Assembly: GCF_000024605.1 (NCBI RefSeq)
Contig: NC_013385.1
Location: 248,001 to 312,000 of the forward strand
Source: Ammonifex degensii KC4
GTDB lineage: Bacteria; Bacillota; Desulfotomaculia; Desulfotomaculales; Ammonificaceae
Length of the DNA: 64,000 nt
Reading direction: 5' to 3'
In this document: piece after piece, positions 10,219 through 42,359 of the stretch
Numbering within the stretch: the first letter of the stretch is position 1
How the letters are laid out: every line of letters begins with the position of its first letter
Notes under the pieces: model-generated
Told to the model about the DNA's origin: nothing
What the model saw: the letters and a program-made list of their open reading frames with translations, nothing else
Databases searched by the model: none
Position numbers and translations under genes: made by a program

Positions 10219-11285
10219 AAGCTCTGGTTCTCTCGGGCGGCAAGGGGACCCGGCTTCGTCCTCTTACCTTCACCACGGCCAAGCAGCTTTTGCCGGTGGC
10301 CAACCGGCCCATCATCCATTACGTCCTCCAGCAGGTCCTGGAGGCGGGGATCGAAGACATCGGCATCATCATCTCCCCGGAGACGGGAGGAAAGGTGAGG
10401 GATGCGGTAGAGGGGGCTTTTTCCGGCAAGGCTCGCCTCACTTTCATCCTGCAGGAGGAGCCCCTGGGATTAGCGCACGCTGTCAAGACGGCTCAAAGTT
10501 TCCTGGGCCAGGATCCCTTTCTCATGTTTCTGGGGGACAACCTCATTCAGGGCGGAGTGCGTCAGTTGGTCAGTGAGCTTGAGCGGGGAGAAAGCGAGGC
10601 CGTCATCCTGCTCAAGGAAGTTCCTGATCCCCGCGCTTTCGGCGTGGCCGTGCTCGACGGCGAGGGGAGGGTGGTAAAGCTTATTGAAAAGCCCAAGGAG
10701 CCTCCCAGCAACCTGGCCCTGGTGGGGGTCTACGCCTTCACCCCGGCCATCCACGAGGCCATCTCCCGCATCAAGCCTTCCTGGCGGGGGGAGCTGGAGA
10801 TAACCGACGCCATCCAGGAACTCATCCATCTGGGCGGGAGGGTGAAGGCTTTGAAGCTTGAGGGCTGGTGGCTTGACACCGGCAAAAAGGACGACATTCT
10901 GGAGGCCAACCGGATAGTGCTGGACGAGTACGCCGAGCGCCGCCTGGAGGGAGAGGTAGACGGAGAAAGCGTCGTGGTAGGAAGGGTGACGGTGGGTCCA
11001 GGCAGCCGGATCGTGCGCAGCACCATACGCGGCCCGGCGGTCATAGGGAAAAACGTCCTCATCGAGGACTCCTTCATCGGTCCCTTCACCGCCATTGGGG
11101 ACGGGGTGGTGCTGCGGGGAGTGGACATTGAACATTCTGTGGTGCTGGAGGGCTGCCACCTGGAGAACGTGGGGCCGGTGGAGGACAGCCTCATAGGCTA
11201 CCGGGCCAGGATAAAGAGGGCTGGGGGAAACAGGCGCAGCGCCCTGCGCTTCTTCATCGGGGACGAGTGCGAGATAAGCCTTTAA
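10215..11285 (+). CDS. rmlA: Glucose-1-phosphate thymidylyltransferase, long form
   Basis: About 356 residues. The nucleotidyltransferase signature [13 protein letters not shown] is at the N-terminus, followed by [14 protein letters not shown] and a sugar-binding region. A C-terminal left-handed beta-helix has isoleucine/valine hexapeptide-like repeats. This is the StrD-type long form (about 355 residues). It makes dTDP-glucose from glucose 1-phosphate and dTTP. TTG 10215 is favoured: it has AAGGGGTGGA upstream and overlaps the previous stop as TTGA. GTG 10206 is in frame but poorly spaced. The operon continues with rmlC and rmlB. Confidence 0.88.
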
Positions 11286-11302
11286 CCGAGGGGGATAGTG
11301 AC

Positions 11303-11764
11303 GTGCAACTCATTCACGGCGTGCAGGTGAAAAAGCTCAGGCTCATTCCTGATGACCGGGGATTCTTGATGGAGTGCCTGCGTTCCGACTGGCCGGAGTT
11401 TACGAAGTTCGGCCAGGCCTACGTTACCGCCTGCTATCCCGGAGTGATAAAAGCCTGGCACTACCACAAGGTGCAGTGGGACCACTTCGTCTGCATCTAC
11501 GGCATGGCCAAGGTAGCGCTTTACGACCCGCGCGAGGACAGCCCCACCAGGGGCATGGTCAACGTCTTTCACATCGGGCTTTTAAACCCCTGCCTCATAA
11601 AGATACCGCCGCGGGTCTACCACGGCTTCACCAGCGAGGGGGGGCAGCTCGCCCTCATCCTCAACATCCCCACCGAGCTTTACAACTACGAGGAGCCGGA
11701 CGAGTACCGTGTCCCCTACAACGACCCTTCCATCCCCTTCTCCTGGGAAGTAAAGCACGGGTAG
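11303..11764 (+). CDS. rmlC: dTDP-4-dehydrorhamnose 3,5-epimerase-like protein
   Basis: 153 residues from GTG 11303 (RBS GAGGGGGAT). It is a cupin of the RmlC superfamily: DDRGFLMECLRSDWPEF, AWHYHKVQWDHFVC, then KIPPRVYHGF, with the conserved histidines. It is shorter than classical RmlC (about 180 residues) and belongs to the compact type common in surface-sugar clusters. It would epimerise the 4-keto sugar made by RmlB. The exact product sugar cannot be deduced. Confidence 0.82.
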   Translation: MQLIHGVQVKKLRLIPDDRGFLMECLRSDWPEFTKFGQAYVTACYPGVIKAWHYHKVQWDHFVCIYGMAKVALYDPREDSPTRGMVNVFHIGLLNPCLIKIPPRVYHGFTSEGGQLALILNIPTELYNYEEPDEYRVPYNDPSIPFSWEVKHG

Positions 11765-11773
11765 GTGGATAGA

Positions 11774-12757
11774 GTGCGTCTGCTGGTGACGGGAGGAGCC
11801 GGTTTTATAGGCTCCAACTTCATCCGCTACATCCTGCAGAAGCACCCCGACTGGGAAATACTCAACCTCGACAAGCTCACCTACGCGGGCAACCTTGACA
11901 ACCTCCGGGACGTGGAAAGCCTGCCCGGCTACCGCTTTGTCAAAGGGGATATCGCCGACCCCGAGCTGGTAGGGGAGCTCATGGCCGAGGGCTGGGACGC
12001 GGTGGTCAACTTTGCGGCCGAGACCCACGTGGACCGCAGCATCGCCGACTCCTCTCCCTTCGTGCGCACCAACGTGGAAGGGGTGAGGGTCCTTTTAGAG
12101 GCCGCCCGCAGGCACAAGATCCCTCTCTTCCTTCAGGTTTCCACCGACGAAGTGTACGGCTCCTTAAGAGAAGAGGATCCTCCCTTCACCGAAAGCTCCC
12201 CTCTCCTTCCCAACAGCCCCTACGCGGCCAGCAAGGCGGCGGCCGATCTGCTGTGCCGGGCTTATCACCGGACTTACGGCCTGCCGGTGATCATCACCCG
12301 CTGCTCCAACAACTTCGGTCCCTACCAGTTTCCCGAGAAGCTCATCCCGCTGGCCGTGACCAATCTTCTGGAGGGGAAGCCCGTGCCCGTTTACGGGGAC
12401 GGGAGGAACATAAGGGACTGGATCTACGTGGAAGACCACTGCCGGGCGCTGGAGCTGGTGCTCCTCAAGGGCCGGCCGGGGGAGATCTACAACATCGGCG
12501 GGGGTCAGGAGATGCGTAATTTGGATCTCCTCAAGGAGATACTGCGACTTCTGGGCAAGGGGGAGGAGTATCTGGTTTTTGTGCCCGACCGGCCGGGGCA
12601 CGACTGGCGCTACGCTTTAGATTCGAGCAAGATCGAGCGGGAGCTGGGCTTTGAAAGGAAGCACACCTTCGCCGAGGCCCTGAGCCGTACGGTAAAGTGG
12701 TATGTCGAAAACGAGTGGTGGTGGAAGCCCCTAAAGGAGCGGCTGAGGGATGATTGA
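11774..12757 (+). CDS. rmlB: dTDP-glucose 4,6-dehydratase
   Basis: About 327 residues. An extended SDR protein with the NAD-binding GGAGFIGSNF at the N-terminus, STDEVYGSL (catalytic Thr-Asp-Glu), YAASKAAAD (YxxxK) and RCSNNFGPYQFPEKLIPL. It converts dTDP-glucose to dTDP-4-keto-6-deoxyglucose. GTG 11774 is chosen because AGGTGG lies 5 bases upstream; GTG 11765 is in frame. No rmlD is present in the window, so the final sugar may not be rhamnose. The gene is followed by inserted DNA rather than the rest of the operon. Confidence 0.93.
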   Translation: MRLLVTGGAGFIGSNFIRYILQKHPDWEILNLDKLTYAGNLDNLRDVESLPGYRFVKGDIADPELVGELMAEGWDAVVNFAAETHVDRSIADSSPFVRTNVEGVRVLLEAARRHKIPLFLQVSTDEVYGSLREEDPPFTESSPLLPNSPYAASKAAADLLCRAYHRTYGLPVIITRCSNNFGPYQFPEKLIPLAVTNLLEGKPVPVYGDGRNIRDWIYVEDHCRALELVLLKGRPGEIYNIGGGQEMRNLDLLKEILRLLGKGEEYLVFVPDRPGHDWRYALDSSKIERELGFERKHTFAEALSRTVKWYVENEWWWKPLKERLRDD

Positions 12758-23934: not shown

Positions 23935-24032
23935 TCCGGCGCTTCACCTCGGAATTTCGACCGGTCGCTTCTCCTTGTTCTTGCTCCCCTCGTTCTTCTG
24001 TGCTAAAAGTGTGGTAAAAGCGTATCTTCCTC

Positions 24033-24180
24033 CGGCGGGTGTAAGGGAAGCGGGTGCAAATCCCGCGCGGTCCCGCCCACTGTGACCGGGAGCTCGCCGC
24101 CCACTATCCAAGCCACTGGGCTTTATGCCTGGGAAGGCCGGGCGGAGGCGAGGAACGGGAGCCAGGAGACCTGCCCGCCG
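24033..24180 (+). ncRNA. Cobalamin (AdoCbl) riboswitch
   Basis: Contains the conserved core blocks in order: GGGAAGCGGGTGCAAATCCC, GCGGTCCCGCCCACTGTGA, GCCACTGGG with TGGGAAGG, and the B12 box GCCAGGAGACCTGCC at 24161-24175. It lies directly upstream of a cobalamin-type ABC transporter operon and would reduce its expression when adenosylcobalamin is plentiful. Confidence 0.95.
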
Positions 24181-24210
24181 GGAAGGTATTCCGCGGCCTT
24201 GCGGGGTTAA

Positions 24211-33800: not shown

Positions 33801-34562
33801 CTAGAAGGGGGCCCAGCCCCCGTCTAGCCCCAGAACCTGACCGTTGATGAAGGCGGCGGCCGGAGAGGCTAGAAAGACGCAGGCCGCCGCCACTTCTTCC
33901 GGCCTACCTAGACGCCCGGAGGGTATGGCTTCGGCCAGGGCGGCCAGTTCTTCCGGGGCAAGCTCCTCCCGCAAAAGGTCGGTCTCGATGGGGCCGGGAG
34001 CCAGGGCGTTCACCGTTATTCCCGCGCTTCCCACCTCACGGGCTAAAGACTTGGTGAGGGCGATGAGCCCCCCTTTGGTGGCGGCGTAGGCGGCCTCGCA
34101 AGAAGCCCCGGTGATGCCCCAGACGGAAGCGATGTTTATGATCCTCCCCCAGCGCTGCCTTATCATGAAGGGGAGGGCTTCCCGGCAGCAGTAGAAGGGA
34201 CCCGAGAGGTTGACCCGCAAAAGCTTCTCCCACTCTTCGTCGGAGGTGTCCACCAGAAGGCGGCGCAGCCCCATTCCCGCGTTGTTCACCAGGATGGATA
34301 CCGGCCCCAGCTCCGCGGACACGGCGGCGAACAGGCGGCGCACCTCCTCCGGGTCGGTGACGTCGGCGCGAAAGGCTTGCGCTTTTACCCCCCATTCGCG
34401 GCAGCGACGGGCCACCTCTTCCGCCTGGGCAGCTGAGCGGCAGAAGTTCACGGCCACCGCTGCCCCACTTTGGGCTAAGGCCAGGGCCACGGCCGCCCCG
34501 ATCCCCCGGCTGGCCCCGGTCACCAGTGCTACTTTTCCTTCTAAGAATCGCTGCCCTTCCAC
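33801..34562 (-). CDS. Short-chain dehydrogenase/reductase (FabG-like)
   Basis: 253 residues from GTG 34562 (RBS AAGGGGAG). Classical SDR motifs: VALVTGASRGIGAAVALALA (cofactor binding), LVNNAGMGLRR, catalytic Ser in NIASVWG, and YAATKGG (YxxxK), with PGPIETD and the end INGQVLGLDGG. It resembles 3-oxoacyl-ACP reductases, but the substrate cannot be told. An IS481-like element sits 82 bases upstream of the start. Confidence 0.9.
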   Translation of the reverse strand: MEGQRFLEGKVALVTGASRGIGAAVALALAQSGAAVAVNFCRSAAQAEEVARRCREWGVKAQAFRADVTDPEEVRRLFAAVSAELGPVSILVNNAGMGLRRLLVDTSDEEWEKLLRVNLSGPFYCCREALPFMIRQRWGRIINIASVWGITGASCEAAYAATKGGLIALTKSLAREVGSAGITVNALAPGPIETDLLREELAPEELAALAEAIPSGRLGRPEEVAAACVFLASPAAAFINGQVLGLDGGWAPF

Positions 34563-35784
34563 GGAGTGCTGCTCCCCTTCGGCCTTCGTTGGTGCTCGCG
34601 CCAAAAAGATAGCAGGTCCGGTTTGCCTTTGCAAGCTGCTGCATGTATTGAGCCAGGGTTTCGTTCACAGCGAGGCTTTCATTTTTGGGTGGGTAATCCC
34701 ACGGGAGAGTAGAGAGTTTGTAGGCATCGAAGATGTGCGGAGCCAGGTGATCCAGGACTACCACCGGCATAGCCCCTATAGCCGGATGGTAGTGGGAAAG
34801 CGAGGTCGCTATTTCCATAGGAGTTTTCCCGTTCAGTTCCCGGCCCAGATGTGGACGCTGGTAGTTGTAGTAAAGGATCCACCTCTGGGCAGAGATAAGG
34901 AAATCCTTCTGGCTTCTGATACCTGCCAGGTAGGGGATGTAGAACTCTTCATCGTCGGTGCGGTGTGATCTTTCTACATAGCCGTTGGCTTCTTTTCTGC
35001 CTGCGGGTATGTTAAGCAGCTGGCAGTCAAGGCGAGAGAAGATAAGGGACATGAGTTTACGCTTTCTCGAGTTAGGAGGGCCACCGAACTCCGAGCCATT
35101 ATCGGTCTGGATAAGGATTGTTTGATTAAGGCCGAAGGTTTTAAGCCAGTTTGCCAGGAGCACAAGGAAAGCGATTCCGTTGGCGAAAGAGAGGGAGTAG
35201 GCGAAGGCTATGAACCGGACCCTTGTTCGGACATCGATAGCGGTGAACTGGTAACGGGGCAGGCGGTTTTTCAGAATAGAGGAGTAGGCTGCGGCTGGGA
35301 GGGTTGTCTTATCGGCTATGTGCTTTACATCGACCTGCCAGAAGGAGAAGGGGGCGAAGGCCTGCACATCGGTCCAGTATTTCCGGGAGCCCGTTTTGCT
35401 TTTACGTTTGCGACAGCGGATGTGGTGGCGTTTGAGGATATTTCGTATGGTGTAGGGGGAGAGCTTAATTTTAAGGCTTTGGTACAGGAGGGAGGCGAGG
35501 CGTTTAGGGCCCAGGTTAGTTTCCTGAGCGAGTTTTACGACTAGGGCTTCGAGTTCTTGAGGGGTACGGTTGGGCATTCTTTTTTTGGGGCCGCGAGGGA
35601 GGATACAACCGGACAAGTTTCCGCCGGATTCGTTTAGGCGTTTGCGCAGTTTATAGATCCAGCGGACGGAGCAGCCCATTATGCGGGCTACCTCTTTAGG
35701 GCTACAGGTGGTGAGGAGGGAGGCCACGGTTTGGGCGATTGCCTGGGGGTTTCCGCTCCTCTTAAGTTGCTGGTATAATGTCAT
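34036..35784 (-). CDS. IS481-like DDE transposase, reading on into flanking DNA
   Basis: The frame from ATG 35784 codes 582 residues, but only the first 380 or so belong to the element. An N-terminal HTH (CSPKEVARIMGCSVRWIYKL) is followed by an rve integrase core: FWQVDVKHIAD (Asp), TAIDVRTRVRF, IQTDNGSEFGG (Asp) and KEANGYVERSHRTDDEEFY (Glu). The element ends at 34644 before any stop codon, so translation continues antisense to the SDR gene up to 34036. All three catalytic residues are present. Confidence 0.85.
   Translation of the reverse strand: MTLYQQLKRSGNPQAIAQTVASLLTTCSPKEVARIMGCSVRWIYKLRKRLNESGGNLSGCILPRGPKKRMPNRTPQELEALVVKLAQETNLGPKRLASLLYQSLKIKLSPYTIRNILKRHHIRCRKRKSKTGSRKYWTDVQAFAPFSFWQVDVKHIADKTTLPAAAYSSILKNRLPRYQFTAIDVRTRVRFIAFAYSLSFANGIAFLVLLANWLKTFGLNQTILIQTDNGSEFGGPPNSRKRKLMSLIFSRLDCQLLNIPAGRKEANGYVERSHRTDDEEFYIPYLAGIRSQKDFLISAQRWILYYNYQRPHLGRELNGKTPMEIATSLSHYHPAIGAMPVVVLDHLAPHIFDAYKLSTLPWDYPPKNESLAVNETLAQYMQQLAKANRTCYLFGASTNEGRRGAALRGRAAILRRKSSTGDRGQPGDRGGRGPGLSPKWGSGGRELLPLSCPGGRGGPSLPRMGGKSASLSRRRHRPGGGAPPVRRRVRGAGAGIHPGEQRGNGAAPPSGGHLRRRVGEAFAGQPLGSLLLLPGSPPLHDKAALGEDHKHRFRLGHHRGFLRGRLRRHQRGAHRPHQVFSP
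34629..34643. repeat. Target-site duplication, left
   Basis: TTGCAAGCTGCTGCA, identical to 35911-35925. It marks the insertion point of the IS481-like element. Confidence 0.92.
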
Positions 35785-35929: not shown

Positions 35930-35958
35930 TTGACATAGAAAAGGGCGCGTAGTATAGT
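35930..35958 (+). promoter_or_regulatory. Strong sigma-A promoter of the hydrogenase operon
   Basis: TTGACA (35930-35935), 17 bases, TATAGT (35953-35958). It begins five bases after the IS target duplication, so the insertion just missed it. Confidence 0.85.
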
Positions 35959-35964
35959 TGAAAC

Positions 35965-36136
35965 CGAAAAGTTAAAGAGGGAACATGATAGGATCTAGGC
36001 CGAAGCCTGCGACGAAGAATAACCCGTTTTAGCTAGAAAGCGGTTATAGGGCGGAAAAGGCAAAAAGCGGAAGGCCGCAGAACCGGCAGCGAAGGGCCGG
36101 GGCTGTGGCCTTTCTTTTCTGTAGGGGGCGGGGGAT
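35965..36136 (+). ncRNA. Structured 5' leader of the hydrogenase operon, class unknown
   Basis: About 170 bases between the expected transcription start and the first gene. It can form AGGC-CGAA-GCCT near 35997-36008, a long stem built on ATAACC/GGTTAT near 36020-36050, and a terminator hairpin (36071-36119). Purine-rich single-stranded joints lie between. I could not match it to any riboswitch class known to me. An attenuating leader is the most economical reading. Confidence 0.5.
36071..36119 (+). terminator. Terminator hairpin in the hydrogenase operon leader
   Basis: AAGGCCGCAG (36071-36080) pairs with CTGTGGCCTT (36103-36112), with an inner CCGGC/GCCGG stem and then TTCTTTTCT. It lies after the promoter and before the first start codon, as in transcription attenuation. 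Confidence 0.75.
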
Positions 36137-36706
36137 TTGGGCAAAGAGGCTGCCGTAATAGGAATCGGTGATCTGTTCCGGCGCGACGCCGGTCTGGGTT
36201 CGTGGGCGGTGGAGTTTCTGGACCAGGAAGGTTTGTCGGCCCACGTGGAGCTCGTCGATCTCGGCACCGGAATAGGCAACCTGGACACCTACTTTAACCG
36301 GCACGAGTACTTGCTGCTGGTTCAGGCGTGGCCAAAAGGGAATTCCCCCGGCAGGATATGCAGGCTCGGACCCGAAGGGGTAGTGCGCCTGCTCCAGGGA
36401 AAAAAGGAAGGGATAGGGTTGGCCTCTTTCTGCCTCTCTCCCTTCTCGCTTTTCCAGGACACCCTCGCCTACCTGCGCGCCATGTACCGGCTGGGAATCG
36501 TCAGGGGAGAGGTCTCCTTGATGGGAGTGGAGCCGAAGGATCTCTCCCCCGGCATGGGGCTTTCTCTTCCCGTCCAGAAGGTTCTCCACCGCTTCCTGCG
36601 CCTGATCCGCAGAGACCTGGAAGAGCGGGGATATGTGCCGCTAAAGTCTTCGGTGGTAGTTCCCCTGCGGCGTTATTGTTTCGGAGGGCTGCGAAACGGG
36701 ACTTGA
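36137..36706 (+). CDS. M52 hydrogenase-maturation-protease-like protein lacking the metal ligands
   Basis: 189 residues from TTG 36137 (RBS GGGGGCGGGGG). The fold of HycI/HybD proteases is recognisable: VIGIGDLFRRDAGLGSWAVE, YLLLVQAWPKGNSPG, SFCLSPFSLF and SLMGVEPKDLSPGMGLSLPV. In the active family these places read GDDGxG, VDAxxxG and SHxxxL; here the acidic, aspartate and histidine nickel ligands appear as Ala, Gln and Phe. It is therefore probably not a protease. It is the first gene of an operon for an [FeFe] hydrogenase, which needs no C-terminal cleavage. A chaperone or regulatory role is a guess. Confidence 0.7.
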   Translation: MGKEAAVIGIGDLFRRDAGLGSWAVEFLDQEGLSAHVELVDLGTGIGNLDTYFNRHEYLLLVQAWPKGNSPGRICRLGPEGVVRLLQGKKEGIGLASFCLSPFSLFQDTLAYLRAMYRLGIVRGEVSLMGVEPKDLSPGMGLSLPVQKVLHRFLRLIRRDLEERGYVPLKSSVVVPLRRYCFGGLRNGT

Positions 36707-36793: not shown

Positions 36794-38443
36794 ATGGAGG
36801 TAGAAAAACTGCTGGAAGAGGCGCTCAAGCAGAAGGAAGTAACCCGCCGGACCTTCCTCAAGATGATGGCGGGGCTGGGCCTGGCGGGCCTGGCCGGTTC
36901 GGTGGGTGGCTGTCTCAGGCAGCACCAGGTTGCCGCCGGTGGCGAGGGCTGGCTGCCCTACCAGTACGATGTGGCCGGGACCTGGCCGGCCCACGTGCGT
37001 GGGAGGGTGCCCATCGATCCCAACAACCCCTCCATCATGCGCGACGACCGCAAGTGCGTTCTCTGCGGCCAGTGCCTGGAGATCTGCCACCGGGTGCAGT
37101 CGGTTTACGGCTACTACGAGCTTCCCATCCGCGACGACATCGTATGTATCAACTGTGGTCAGTGTTCCCTGGCCTGTCCCACCGGTGCCATTCAGGAGCG
37201 GGACGACACGGAGAAAGTGCTTAAAGCCTTGAAGGACCCCAACAAGTTCGTGGTGGTTCAGACCGCTCCTTCCATTCGGGTGGCGCTGGGTGAGGAGTTC
37301 GGCATGCCCCCGGGCACCTGGGTGGCAGGTAAAATGGTGGCTGCTTTGCGGCGCCTGGGCTTTAACGCGGTGCTGGATACCAACTTTGCCGCCGACCTAA
37401 CCATCATGGAGGAGGCCACCGAGCTCATCAAGCGCATCAAGGGGGAGCTGCCGGGACGGCCGCTACCCCAGTTCACTTCCTGCAGCCCGGGCTGGGTCAA
37501 GTTCTGTGAATACTTCTACCCCGATCTTATACCCCATCTCTCCAGCTGCAAGTCGCCCCAGCAGATGTTCGGGGCCACGGTGAAGACCTACTATGCCGAG
37601 AAGCGGGGTATCGATCCGCGCAAGATAGTCTCGGTTTCCATCATGCCCTGCACGGCCAAGAAGTTCGAGGCCCAGCGCCCGGAGATGATCTCGGCCAAGA
37701 AGTACTGGGAGAAGAAGGACCCCAAGATTGCGGAAGGGGTCACCCGCGACGTAGACATCGTGCTCACCACCCGCGAGCTGGCCAAACTCATAAAGCAGGC
37801 CAAGATCGACTTCCCGCGCCTGCCGGACGAGGATTTCGATCCCCTCATGGGCAAGTGCACGGGTGGGGCGATCATCTTCGGTGCTTCCGGCGGGGTGATG
37901 GAGGCAGCCATCCGCACGGCCTACTTCTTCATCACCGGCAAGGAGCCGCCGCAGCAGCTCTTGGATCTGAAGCCCGTTCGCGGCCTGGCCAGCGTCAAGG
38001 AGGCGGCGGTGGACATCCCCGGGGCGGGGACCATCCGGGTGGCAGTCTGTCAGGGTATGGCAGCCAGCCGGCAGGTCCTGGACATCGTGCGGGCTGGCAA
38101 GGCTCCCTGGCATTTCGTGGAGTTCATGGCCTGCCCCGGCGGCTGCGAGAGCGGTGGCGGCCAGCCGCGCAGCTCGGTGCCTCAGGCTAACGAGGTGCGG
38201 GCCAAGCGCACTGCCAGCCTCTATGCTGCTGATGCCCGCTGGGTCTGGCGCGAGAGCCACGAGAACCCGGACATCCTGAAAGTTTACCAGGACTTTTACG
38301 GCCACCCCATGAGCGAGCTGGCGGAGGAGCTTCTGCACACGCACTACACCTCGCGCGCCGACAAGCTCAAGGCCATACAGCCTTCTGAGAAGGAGAAGCC
38401 GTGGGAGCAGTACTACCCGGTGCGACTTACGCCCGAGATTTAA
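36794..38443 (+). CDS. hydA: [FeFe] hydrogenase catalytic subunit with Tat signal
   Basis: 549 residues from ATG 36794 (RBS GGAGGGAGG). A twin-arginine signal (TRRTFLKMMAGLGLAGLAG) is followed by two [4Fe-4S] clusters (CVLCGQCLEIC and CINCGQCSLAC). The H-cluster domain has L1 TSCSPGWVKFCE, L2 MPCTAKKFEAQR and L3 FMACPGGCESGGGQP, and includes the small-subunit-like C-terminal tail. The second residue after Cys in L1 is Ser, and L3 has ES in place of the more usual IG. Most clostridial HydA are cytoplasmic; this one is predicted to act outside the membrane, likely oxidising H2. Confidence 0.93.
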   Translation: MEVEKLLEEALKQKEVTRRTFLKMMAGLGLAGLAGSVGGCLRQHQVAAGGEGWLPYQYDVAGTWPAHVRGRVPIDPNNPSIMRDDRKCVLCGQCLEICHRVQSVYGYYELPIRDDIVCINCGQCSLACPTGAIQERDDTEKVLKALKDPNKFVVVQTAPSIRVALGEEFGMPPGTWVAGKMVAALRRLGFNAVLDTNFAADLTIMEEATELIKRIKGELPGRPLPQFTSCSPGWVKFCEYFYPDLIPHLSSCKSPQQMFGATVKTYYAEKRGIDPRKIVSVSIMPCTAKKFEAQRPEMISAKKYWEKKDPKIAEGVTRDVDIVLTTRELAKLIKQAKIDFPRLPDEDFDPLMGKCTGGAIIFGASGGVMEAAIRTAYFFITGKEPPQQLLDLKPVRGLASVKEAAVDIPGAGTIRVAVCQGMAASRQVLDIVRAGKAPWHFVEFMACPGGCESGGGQPRSSVPQANEVRAKRTASLYAADARWVWRESHENPDILKVYQDFYGHPMSELAEELLHTHYTSRADKLKAIQPSEKEKPWEQYYPVRLTPEI

Positions 38444-38461: not shown

Positions 38462-39223
38462 ATGAAGGGAGTTCTGGTAGACATAACCCGCTGTGTAGGC
38501 TGCGGCAGTTGCGTGGTGGCCTGCAAGCTTTACAATAACCTTCCCTGGTCCAACGCGCCTCACCTGGGGAAGGATGCGGTCCTGACGGCCGACAACTGGA
38601 CGGTGGTGAAGGAGTTCACCGCCTCCAGGGGGAAGGAGTCGGTCTGGCGGTTCGTCAAAGAGCAGTGCTTTCACTGCCTGGAGCCAGCCTGTGCTTCCGC
38701 CTGCTTTGCCTCGGCCTTCCGCAAGACGCCAGAGGGGCCGGTGATCTACAACGAGCGGGTCTGCGTGGGCTGCCGCTACTGCATGATCGCCTGTCCCTTC
38801 AGCATACCCAAGTACGAGTGGCAGGCTCGCTTCCCCCGGGTGCAAAAGTGCCAGATGTGCTTCTACCGGGTGAAGGACGGCGAGATGCCGGCCTGCGTGA
38901 CCGTGTGTCCTGCCGGGGCGTTGAAGTTCGGTGACCGGGACGCGCTTTTGAAGGAGGCCAAGGAGCGCATAGCCCAAAACCCCGGCCGGTACGTGAACCA
39001 CGTGTACGGCGAGAAAGAGTACGGCGGCACCTGCTGGCTTTACTTGAGTGATGTGCCTTTTGCGGAGCTCGGCTTCCGGACCCACGTGTCCACCGAGTCC
39101 ATCCCCCACTGGAGCGAACGGGTGACCAAGTGGACGCTGCCGGTGGCCGGGGGCTGGGCGGCCGTGCTCACCGCCCTTTATCTGGCCACCAGGGGCTCCG
39201 GTGGGGCGGAGAAGAGCCATTAG
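38462..39223 (+). CDS. Iron-sulfur electron-transfer subunit (FdhB/HmcB-like)
   Basis: 253 residues from ATG 38462 (RBS GGAGG). Four cysteine clusters: CVGCGSCVVAC, CFHCLEPACASAC, CVGCRYCMIAC, and CQMC with CVTVC. The C-terminal membrane helix (VAGGWAAVLTALYLA) follows. It is clearly related to the fdhB product at 31511 (both share KFGxRDALLKEAKxRIAQNP) and probably arose by duplication. It links the hydrogenase to the NrfD-like subunit. Confidence 0.9.
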   Translation: MKGVLVDITRCVGCGSCVVACKLYNNLPWSNAPHLGKDAVLTADNWTVVKEFTASRGKESVWRFVKEQCFHCLEPACASACFASAFRKTPEGPVIYNERVCVGCRYCMIACPFSIPKYEWQARFPRVQKCQMCFYRVKDGEMPACVTVCPAGALKFGDRDALLKEAKERIAQNPGRYVNHVYGEKEYGGTCWLYLSDVPFAELGFRTHVSTESIPHWSERVTKWTLPVAGGWAAVLTALYLATRGSGGAEKSH

Positions 39224-40456
39224 GTGAAAAGAAACTTTAAACCTTCACAGGGGCGGGTGAAACAGATGGCTTGTGAATTTCCGGAAGGCTGGCGCTTCCG
39301 CATGACGGGTTGGCGCAAGTTCTTCATCCTGGTCTTCCTGGTAGCGGTCGGCGTGATGATCTACCGTCTGGTCTATGGGCTGGGTGCGGCCACCCACCTC
39401 AACGACCAGTGGCCCTGGGGCTGGTGGATCGCGGTCGACGTCCTGATCGGCGTGGCTTTAGCCGGTGGCGGCTACTCCACGGCTTTTCTGGTCCACATCC
39501 TGCACCGGAAGCAGTTTGCGCCGGTGGCGCGGGCCGCGCTTCTCACCTCCATGCTGGGTTACATCCTGGTGCTGATCGGCCTCTTCATGGATATCGGACG
39601 GTGGTACAACTTCTGGCGGCCCTTCCTGGTTTACCCGGGGAGCTGGCACTCGGTACTCTTCGAAGTGTTCTGGTGCATCTCCCTTTATACCACGGTGCAG
39701 GTTCTGGAGTTCGGGAGCATAGTCTTCGAGCGGGTCAAGTCGGAAAGACTCAAGCGCGTCTTCGACACCATGCTTCCTCCCCTTTTCATCCTGGGCGTGG
39801 TCCTGCCCACCCTGCACCAGTCTTCGCTGGGCTCCCTCTACGTCGTAACGGTGGATAGGCTTGATCCCCTGTGGTGGTCCCTTGCGCTCCCCATTTTCTT
39901 CCTGCTGTCCTCCTTCTTCGTAGGACCGGCCATGGTGACGCTGGAAGGTTCCCTGGCGGCTAAGGCCTATGGCCGGCAGATGGAGATCCCGGTTCTTTCC
40001 CGGCTGGTTAAAGTAGGTGCCTGGGTGATGTTCTTCTACCTGGTGTTTAAGCTCATCGACCTCGGCTACCGCAATCAGTTCGGCCACCTCTTCGACGGTT
40101 CTCTTGCCAGCAACCTGTTCCTGGTGGAGATGATAGGCGGGGTTCTTATCCCTATGATCATGTTTGCCATCCCGAGCGTGCGCAACTCCAGCAAGGGACT
40201 CATTACCGCTTCCATCCTCACCGTGGCCGGAGTAATTCTCAACCGTATGAATGTGGTCTTCACCGGGATGGCGGCGGCCATGGGCGGCTCTTACTTCCCC
40301 AAGTGGACGGAGTTCATGGTCACGGCGGGACTGATAGCCTTCGCCGTGCTGGCCTACTGCTTCCTGGTGGAGAACTTCGCCATCTTGCCGGCGGAGGAGC
40401 ATGTACCGGCGGGCAAGCCGGCGGAGGCGCACACTACCTACACCGTGGTCGGCTAA
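39224..40456 (+). CDS. NrfD/HybB-type membrane subunit
   Basis: 410 residues from GTG 39224, overlapping no gene and adjoining the previous stop; ATG 39266 is also possible. About ten membrane helices: FFILVFLVAVGVMIYRLVYG, WGWWIAVDVLIGVALAGGGY, TSMLGYILVLIGLFMDIGRW and later helices. NrfD-family proteins pass electrons between an attached Fe-S subunit and menaquinone, some pumping ions. It completes an exported hydrogenase-quinone reductase complex like Hmc or Hyb. Confidence 0.9.
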   Translation: MKRNFKPSQGRVKQMACEFPEGWRFRMTGWRKFFILVFLVAVGVMIYRLVYGLGAATHLNDQWPWGWWIAVDVLIGVALAGGGYSTAFLVHILHRKQFAPVARAALLTSMLGYILVLIGLFMDIGRWYNFWRPFLVYPGSWHSVLFEVFWCISLYTTVQVLEFGSIVFERVKSERLKRVFDTMLPPLFILGVVLPTLHQSSLGSLYVVTVDRLDPLWWSLALPIFFLLSSFFVGPAMVTLEGSLAAKAYGRQMEIPVLSRLVKVGAWVMFFYLVFKLIDLGYRNQFGHLFDGSLASNLFLVEMIGGVLIPMIMFAIPSVRNSSKGLITASILTVAGVILNRMNVVFTGMAAAMGGSYFPKWTEFMVTAGLIAFAVLAYCFLVENFAILPAEEHVPAGKPAEAHTTYTVVG

Positions 40457-40477: not shown

Positions 40478-42359
40478 GTAGGAGGGGGCGGCTAACCCCC
40501 GTCCTCTCACACCACCGTACGTACCGTTCGGTATACGGCGGTTCATGAGGCACTACGAAGTTCACGGTACCGGTCGACCAAGCTAACCAGCCCTTGGCTG
40601 CGCCAGTAGGCAAGGCCAAGGGCTTTGTTCACCTGGGGCGTGTTTGCCAGCCGCCAGCAGCCTTTGCGCGAACCGCTAATGTGGCGCGCCCAGTCCTCAG
40701 GAATGCCCAGGGCCACCAGGTTGCGTCGTCTGGTGCGGGGCCGCTTCCATTGCTTCAACAGACACATGCGCAGTCGCCGCCGTATCCACTCGTCCAGGGC
40801 CTGCAGTATGCTGGGGGTCTCTATCAGCCGAAAGTAGCCCATCCATCCCTTGAGGTATTCATTGAGGCGCGCCAGGCGCTCGGCCATATTCACACTGCGG
40901 CTGCGCGAGGTCGGCCAGCGGATGCGCTGCTTGAACCGCTTCACCGTCTGGGGTGCCAGCCGGATGCGCGGCTCCTTTTCCCAGGTGAAGGAAAAGCCGA
41001 GGATTCCGCGCCGCCAGGCGTAGTCCACGGCGCTCTTTTCCTCGTTTATCCGTAGCTTGAGCCGTTGCTCCAGGAAGCGCTTCAGGCTCTCGAACACCCG
41101 CTGGCCGGCGCGGCAGCTTTTTACGTAAACGTTGCTGTCATCGGCGTACCTTACGAACCTGTGGCCGCGCCGCTCCAGTTCTTTGTCCAGGTCGTCCAGA
41201 ATGATATTGGCCAGAAGCGGGCTCAGCGGCCCTCCCTGCGGGGTGCCCTCCTCCGTGCGTACGCAGCAGCCATTAATCATGACTCCGGCCTGAAGGTAGG
41301 CCCGTATTAACTTGAGTACCCGCTTGTCCTTCACCTTCCGCGCCACCCTGGCCATCAGGAGGTCATGGTTGACGCGGTCGAAGAATTGTGCCAGGTCGAG
41401 GTCCACCACGTGCCGGTAGCCCTGGGCCACGTACCTGCGGGCTTGCTCCACCGCCTGGTGGGCGCTGCGCCCCGGGCGGAAGCTGTAGCTGTGTGGGGAA
41501 AACCCGGGGTCAAAGATGGGTGTCAGTACCTGAAGCAGGGCCTGCTGGATCAGGCGGTCCAGCACTGTGGGGATGCCCAACAGCCGCACGCCGCCACCGG
41601 GTTTCGGGATTTCGACCCGGCGCACCGGCATGGGCCGGTAGGTCCCCGCAAGCAGTTCTTCCTTGATGCGCGGCCAGTGTTCTTTCAGGTAGGAGCGTAG
41701 GGCTTCTGGCTCCATCCCGTCCACTCCGGCTGCGCCTCCGTTCCGCTCCACCCGGCGCAGGGCCTTCGTCATGTTGGCCCGCTCGACTACCTGTTCCATC
41801 AGGCGGTACCGTGGGTCTCCGCCGGGTTGCTCCATCGGTGCCGGGAGGGTGCTCGGCACTCCCACAGTCCCCCGCGGATTCACCGCTTCCTCCTGTGGGC
41901 AGCTCCCTGCCGGGATTTTCGGCTGTCGTCGCTCCCTCCGCGAACCTTCCATGGGCTCCCCGCTCCTCATGTTCGGCCCTTCCCCCCTTTTGATGTCTTA
42001 AAAGGGAGTACTATGGCGTCTGCTGACTCCTGCCGGTTCAGCCGCACCTCCCGGTACGGGTTGCCGGATAACCCGGCTTGTCCGGCAGGCCTCCCCGGGT
42101 AAGGGCGCTGTCTTTCCCTCCATCTACCCGCCCCATTTACTCTCGGCAGCCTTCGGTGGCCAGGACTTCGCTTTGTTTTGCAAGCTCATCCAGCTGCCGC
42201 TAGCCTCGCCTGGGGTTCGTGGTCCTCGGGCCGGAGGTTTGCCGCCGGCTTCCTTCGGATTCCGCCTCGCGGCGGACACCCTTGCCTTAAGCTAACGACT
42301 ACCGCCACCTTCGTCGTTCGGGACTTTCACCCTATAGACAACGCCCATGCCGGGCACAC
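40478..42359 (-). mobile_element. Group II intron, bacterial class C type
   Basis: About 1.88 kb on the minus strand. The 5' end begins GTGTGCCCGGC (42359) and includes GGGTGAAAGTCCCGAACG typical of domain I. The reverse transcriptase ORF lies in domain IV. Domain V-like sequence (GTACGTACGGTGG region, 40503-40545) and the end CCTCCTAC (40478) follow. The 5' exon ends in a terminator stem and T run, the usual class C target. Exact ends are inferred from the consensus. Confidence 0.88.
40543..41970 (-). CDS. ltrA: Group II intron reverse transcriptase/maturase
   Basis: 475 residues from ATG 41970. RT domains: AAGVDGMEPEALRSYL, PIFDPGFSPHSYSFRPGRSA, VVDLDLAQFFDRVNHDLLM, EEGTPQGGPLSPLLANIILD and the catalytic RYADDSNVYV. 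A maturase X domain follows (LNEYLKGWMGYFRLIETPS, then IRRRLRMCLLKQWKRPRTRR). It has no HNH endonuclease at the end, normal for class C introns. It appears intact, so the intron may be mobile. Confidence 0.94.
   Translation of the reverse strand: MRSGEPMEGSRRERRQPKIPAGSCPQEEAVNPRGTVGVPSTLPAPMEQPGGDPRYRLMEQVVERANMTKALRRVERNGGAAGVDGMEPEALRSYLKEHWPRIKEELLAGTYRPMPVRRVEIPKPGGGVRLLGIPTVLDRLIQQALLQVLTPIFDPGFSPHSYSFRPGRSAHQAVEQARRYVAQGYRHVVDLDLAQFFDRVNHDLLMARVARKVKDKRVLKLIRAYLQAGVMINGCCVRTEEGTPQGGPLSPLLANIILDDLDKELERRGHRFVRYADDSNVYVKSCRAGQRVFESLKRFLEQRLKLRINEEKSAVDYAWRRGILGFSFTWEKEPRIRLAPQTVKRFKQRIRWPTSRSRSVNMAERLARLNEYLKGWMGYFRLIETPSILQALDEWIRRRLRMCLLKQWKRPRTRRRNLVALGIPEDWARHISGSRKGCWRLANTPQVNKALGLAYWRSQGLVSLVDRYRELRSAS

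Follow-up and report, generated by a model that had tools for sequence, protein, structure and literature searches.

A ligand-less relative of [NiFe] hydrogenase maturation proteases, encoded beside a Tat-exported [FeFe] hydrogenase in Ammonifex degensii, is a candidate assembly or export chaperone

The region analyzed here (the window) is a 64,000-nucleotide stretch, positions 248,001-312,000, of the 2.157-Mb genome of Ammonifex degensii KC4 (two contigs). Window positions 36137-36706 (+) hold an intact open reading frame with a TTG start, which encodes a 189-amino acid M52-like protein without metal ligands. The next gene, hydA (36794-38443, +), starts 87 nt downstream in the same direction and encodes a single-polypeptide group A [FeFe] hydrogenase with the Tat signal RRTFLK. 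Its H-cluster domains (PF02906 and PF02256) and family score (TIGR02512, 496 bits; cut-off 406) are present, and a VGGC, read by eye, is a possible lipobox. Profile matches identify the two following genes as encoding a HybA/HmcB-like electron-transfer subunit with four [4Fe-4S] clusters (38462-39223, +) and a HybB/NrfD-like integral membrane subunit (39224-40456, +). By description rather than by sequence, this subunit set resembles that of Dred_0461-3 in Desulfotomaculum reducens, a trimeric membrane-bound iron hydrogenase with catalytic, 4Fe-4S, and cytochrome b subunits (PMC4137172); unlike for the window operon, no M52-like gene is described there (PMC4137172). An IS-type transposase ORF (34036-35784, -) lies upstream of the M52-like gene, and a formate dehydrogenase cluster is located beyond it, further upstream of the hydrogenase operon. 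A group II intron with reverse transcriptase (40543-42276) lies directly 3' of the operon, and the window also contains a cobalamin riboswitch (24020-24192, 103 bits).

The sequence-only reading of this locus had described the 189-residue product as an M52 fold whose motifs remain while its metal ligands are gone, and our comparisons agree on both counts. The protein matched the Pfam family HycI at 30.5 bits (cut-off 23) and TIGR00072 at 61.6 bits (cut-off 47.45); no Pfam family other than HycI was matched, and all NCBIfam matches were to hydrogenase maturation protease families. It also matched solved structures of the HybD type (HybD chain 1cfz, E=3e-7; 5ttx, E=2e-8), and profile-profile comparison with M52 (hhalign) gave a probability of 99.6 and E=8.7e-25. 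Judged by these matches, the protein is a true homolog of the M52 endopeptidases that mature [NiFe] hydrogenases (HybD, HycI). With the M52 endopeptidases (HybD/HyaD/HycI; PF01750, TIGR00072), it shares the core motifs GxG, D, G-G of the ligand-1 loop, DxG, and PG. A structure predicted from three sequences had a pLDDT of 41.7 and was set aside.

The alignment with M52 proteases that the earlier reading had proposed revealed no intact ligands. In the window protein, A18, Q63, and F103 occupy the positions of HybD Glu16, Asp62, and His93. Among the 58 aligned sequences, all three ligands (Glu/Asp, Asp, and His) were found in each of the 51 canonical proteases, HybD included, whereas not one ligand was kept in any of the seven members of the M52-like family, which carry A, M, or R at the first site, Q or Y at the second, and F, G, E, or a gap at the third. 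All seven retain D17 (HybD D15, just before ligand 1) and the Asp of the DGGT motif (HybD D40), and most structural glycines of the fold are still there. The family further differs from M52 endopeptidases in that N10 of the GN motif is mostly D, the loop around His93 is shorter in five members, and the partner is an [FeFe] HydA. In addition, all seven have an extra C-terminal tail of 25-28 residues in which RG and PL are invariant and RY nearly so, beginning at about residue 164 in the window protein (ERGYVPLKSSVVVPLRRY...), whereas canonical tails are mostly shorter. The protein is best explained as a former maturation endopeptidase that no longer recognizes nickel and has almost certainly lost nickel-dependent cleavage. 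Because the Pfam and TIGR00072 cut-offs are passed, automated annotation would label it a hydrogenase maturation protease and so mislead [NiFe] inventories.

A profile search of 113 genomes of the class recovered seven matches at 223-308 bits, followed by a gap down to 73 bits, where the canonical proteases start. These members come from three families: the window, A. thiophilus, UBA3572 (G364), G300 (a complete genome in one contig of 2,349,476 bases), G437, G438, and G456. Outside the class, no members were detected among 398 genomes of the phylum in a single-sequence search with ligands checked, and the viral contigs scanned contained no relative. Among named genomes, a pattern scan picked up just A. 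thiophilus and UBA3572; its patterns are narrow, and the genome surveys are the better census. The seven proteins fall into two groups with about 35% identity between them and form one clade (support 100/99) whose stem measures 2.2 changes per site, a topology that places a single origin behind the ligand-less proteins. By profile scores, their best canonical matches are the proteases of group-1 Tat [NiFe] hydrogenases (the group-1/NiFeSe type). A group-1 [NiFe] protease ancestor would agree with these scores, and a tree test did not reject that grouping (p-AU 0.34), although the long stem keeps this placement tentative. Among open-licence papers, we found none on an M52 homolog paired with an [FeFe] hydrogenase.

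The pairing with an [FeFe] hydrogenase, proposed earlier from the window, recurred throughout the family. In all seven members the M52-like gene immediately precedes a hydA whose product bears an RRxFLK-type Tat signal, and across the 113 genomes the ligand-less variant was always next to such a gene and never elsewhere. In GTDB families f1, f2, and f147 (17 genomes), the M52-like gene was present in 7/7 genomes with Tat-HydA and 0/10 without it (Fisher 5e-5), and restriction to HydF-positive genomes gave 7/7 versus 0/6 (6e-4), p-values to be taken as indicative because the genomes are related and the genes travel as operons. Presence of the gene tracked neither [NiFe] large subunits nor general [FeFe] maturation (HydF). 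The partner HydA proteins of six members form one cluster with moderate support (81/79); in UBA3572 the partner is a different Tat-HydA paralog, whose gene lies 356 nt downstream and is possibly transcribed separately. The link to Tat-HydA is well supported. A further 27 Tat-HydA rows in the HydA tree have no M52-like neighbor, and since most Tat-HydA proteins of the class lack such a partner, the M52-like protein would be a lineage-specific accessory, dispensable for the enzyme type. Gene adjacency would also fit a protease that trims HydA itself, and the tails of partner HydA proteins are on average slightly longer. Measured after the last conserved motif, however, these tails span 7-31 residues, against 12-24 in other HydA proteins, and have no cleavage-site-like extension in common, which makes such trimming very unlikely. 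Separately, the Tat-hydA of G456 (L108, about 10540-12100) carries a single TAG codon in frame where Trp is expected (CSPG*IKF), reflecting either a pseudogene or an assembly error.

The window contains no [NiFe] large subunit; those of the genome lie at about 0.57, 1.24, 1.78, and 2.01 Mb, whereas the window spans 0.248-0.312 Mb. In none of the seven genomes does a [NiFe] large subunit lie next to the M52-like gene. All seven do carry at least one tailed (cleavable) [NiFe] large subunit without a canonical protease beside it, and G300 has three tailed large subunits for one canonical M52, as would be expected if the M52-like protein still processed a [NiFe] large subunit through a remodelled, metal-free recognition. 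We consider this quite improbable, given that residues otherwise invariant as ligands are gone and that the gene never adjoins a [NiFe] gene. Moreover, an equal shortage, with two group-1 large subunits and one M52 each, occurs in four f2 relatives (G044, G434, G435, and G436) in which both the M52-like gene and Tat-HydA are absent, so that the distribution of the gene matches that of Tat-HydA and not that of unpaired large subunits. A nearby [NiFe] hydrogenase as the true partner, which the sequence-only reading had named as an outcome that would overturn it, is rejected on the basis of the genome positions and these f2 relatives. The regions L188 and L189 (G300) and L191-L199 hold tailed group-1 large subunits in genomes whose single canonical protease lies beside another enzyme. 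At about 1.243 Mb of the A. degensii genome (L119 7474, -), a [NiFe] large-subunit gene has TGA in frame in place of the first Cys codon of DPCxxCxxH (DP*IGCAVH); it probably encodes a selenocysteine-containing [NiFeSe] hydrogenase, as does its counterpart in A. thiophilus (L125).

Compared between the two Ammonifex genomes, the M52-like gene has a dN/dS of 0.15-0.18, which indicates constraint. This is close to the 0.27 of FdhE, which serves the neighboring formate dehydrogenase as its dedicated accessory protein; HydA gives 0.03-0.05 and the canonical NiFeSe protease 0.09-0.13. The M52-like gene is thus fast-evolving yet maintained, as accessory proteins are, and ligand loss in a gene that stays constrained favors the re-purposing suggested earlier. 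The gene might instead be a decaying remnant of an ancestral operon that contained both a [NiFe] hydrogenase and Tat-HydA. An operon of this kind exists in G463 (L109 7518-13521), where genes for a canonical M52, Tat [NiFe] small and large subunits, Tat-HydA, and a HybA-like protein occur in a row, and the lost ligands and long stem fit relaxed constraint. Yet decay is rather improbable in view of the dN/dS values, the new conserved tail, and seven open reading frames that are intact at such low identity between the two groups. The origin of the gene is compatible with the remnant account; its later state is not decay. A mixed operon like that of G463 is a plausible starting point, since an M52 gene would end up in front of hydA once the [NiFe] genes were lost.

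Retention of the M52-like gene beside Tat-HydA is also apparent from a comparison of G437 with G300. The dS of the M52-like gene was 0.42-0.47 and that of most neighbors 0.25-0.6, against 2.1 for hydA and 3.2 for hybA (L106 11872-13449 versus L105 9108-10679). Because the latter values are high relative to the background, hydA and hybA were swapped for distant homologs while the M52-like gene stayed beside the new Tat-HydA. Specificity of the M52-like protein for one HydA sequence is ruled out by this swap together with the UBA3572 paralog. Between G437 and G438, the hydA/hybA block is nearly identical (dS 0.007-0.04), indicative of recent exchange. In G300, the hybA-like gene (L105 10700-13270) is interrupted by an opposite-strand ORF of 461 amino acids, probably a transposase.

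Upstream of the M52-like gene, a sigma-70-like promoter (TTGACA-17-TATAGT; 35930-35958, +), identified by consensus match only, precedes a leader of about 170 nt (35958-36122), and both are kept in A. thiophilus. The leader contains a terminator- or attenuator-like hairpin with a T-run (36070-36122, +; z -3.8) that ends 14 nt before the TTG; searches of Rfam 15 with the leader returned no family matches. We built a hairpin model from ten copies and searched 69 sources (0.89 Mb) with it; because an exact match to the word CCACGAAGG decided which copies entered the model, and the loci were chosen for their hydrogenase genes, the conservation and enrichment described here are probably biased. The model matched the A. 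thiophilus copy at E=0.03 and the window's own copy weakly. The word CCACGAAGG is frequent in the 5' arm, often as CCACGAAGG...CCTTCGTGG followed by a T-run. Copies occur at L105 7989-8050 (-) and 8292-8350 (+), L106 5328-5389, L110 10388-10449 (-) and 7493-7554 (-), L127 8733-8795, L086 1077-1140, and L109 10983-11050. With genes named by eye, further copies precede Tat-hydA, MvhD-like/HydABC operons, DUF3842 genes, and M52-like genes; a few are found in front of others, such as FmdE-like and aspartase/fumarase-like genes; in 19 regions around [NiFe] large subunits (L188-L206), there was no match below E 0.1. The divergent intergenic regions in L105 and L127 carry one copy per direction, which argues for leader attenuators rather than terminators of upstream genes. 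These recurrent hairpins may represent a new regulatory RNA, mainly of [FeFe]-hydrogenase genes.

The position of the M52-like gene, first in its operon and behind an attenuator-like leader, raises the prospect of a sensor or regulator that uses its M52 fold to bind HydA, a metal, or a redox signal and to govern operon expression or activity, and the protein does evolve faster than HydA (85% versus 97% identity). We regard this role as unlikely: with HycI as its sole Pfam match, the protein has neither a domain for binding DNA or RNA nor one for signalling, and hairpins of this type are also present at operons that lack the M52-like gene and hence do not need it.

[FeFe] and [NiFe] hydrogenases have independent origins and separate maturation systems. 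Since the nickel-detecting residues are lost and the gene always stands in front of that of an exported hydrogenase, the M52-like protein is probably a helper for a different enzyme. We propose, with a probability of roughly 0.5, that it is a non-proteolytic ex-protease acting as an assembly or export-quality (Tat-proofreading) chaperone of Tat-HydA. HydA carries its own Tat signal. A Tat-exported HydA needs its H-cluster inserted in the cytoplasm, and it is for enzymes of this kind that redox-enzyme chaperones control export. The M52 fold would still be able to dock on the catalytic subunit of a hydrogenase, the protein would retain pre-HydA in the cytoplasm during H-cluster assembly by HydEFG, and folded HydA would pass to Tat once the M52-like protein lets go. 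Maturation proteases form a stable complex with the [NiFe] large subunit and bind even a subunit already without its cleavable tail (PMC5299533), so binding can outlast cleavage and a cleavage-less protease may stay on as a holding factor.

This proposed role resembles that of known Tat chaperones (the REMPs TorD, DmsD, and NapD, and HyaE/HybE for [NiFe] enzymes), whose genes adjoin that of a Tat-exported cofactor enzyme, as is the case in 7/7 members here. Unlike them, the M52-like protein has no profile match to the TorD/DmsD, NapD, HyaE, or HybE families. The maturases HydE, HydF, and HydG would serve the same enzyme before export; however, their folds are unrelated to M52, and HydF is also found in relatives without the M52-like gene. 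Overall, the ligand loss noticed in the sequence-only reading was right and its re-purposing direction is supported, whereas the chaperone function is inferred.

We are not aware of any named factor dedicated to proofreading Tat-exported [FeFe] hydrogenases. That a [NiFe] protease became the first dedicated assembly/Tat-proofreading chaperone of an exported [FeFe] hydrogenase, in operons sharing a new leader-RNA attenuator, is a tentative proposal to which we give somewhat less than even odds. If it is true, a maturation protein has moved between hydrogenase types with loss of its metal site, a clear case of pseudoenzyme co-option. The seven genes provide a concrete proofreading-factor candidate, with relatives that have Tat-HydA but lack the M52-like gene as natural controls.
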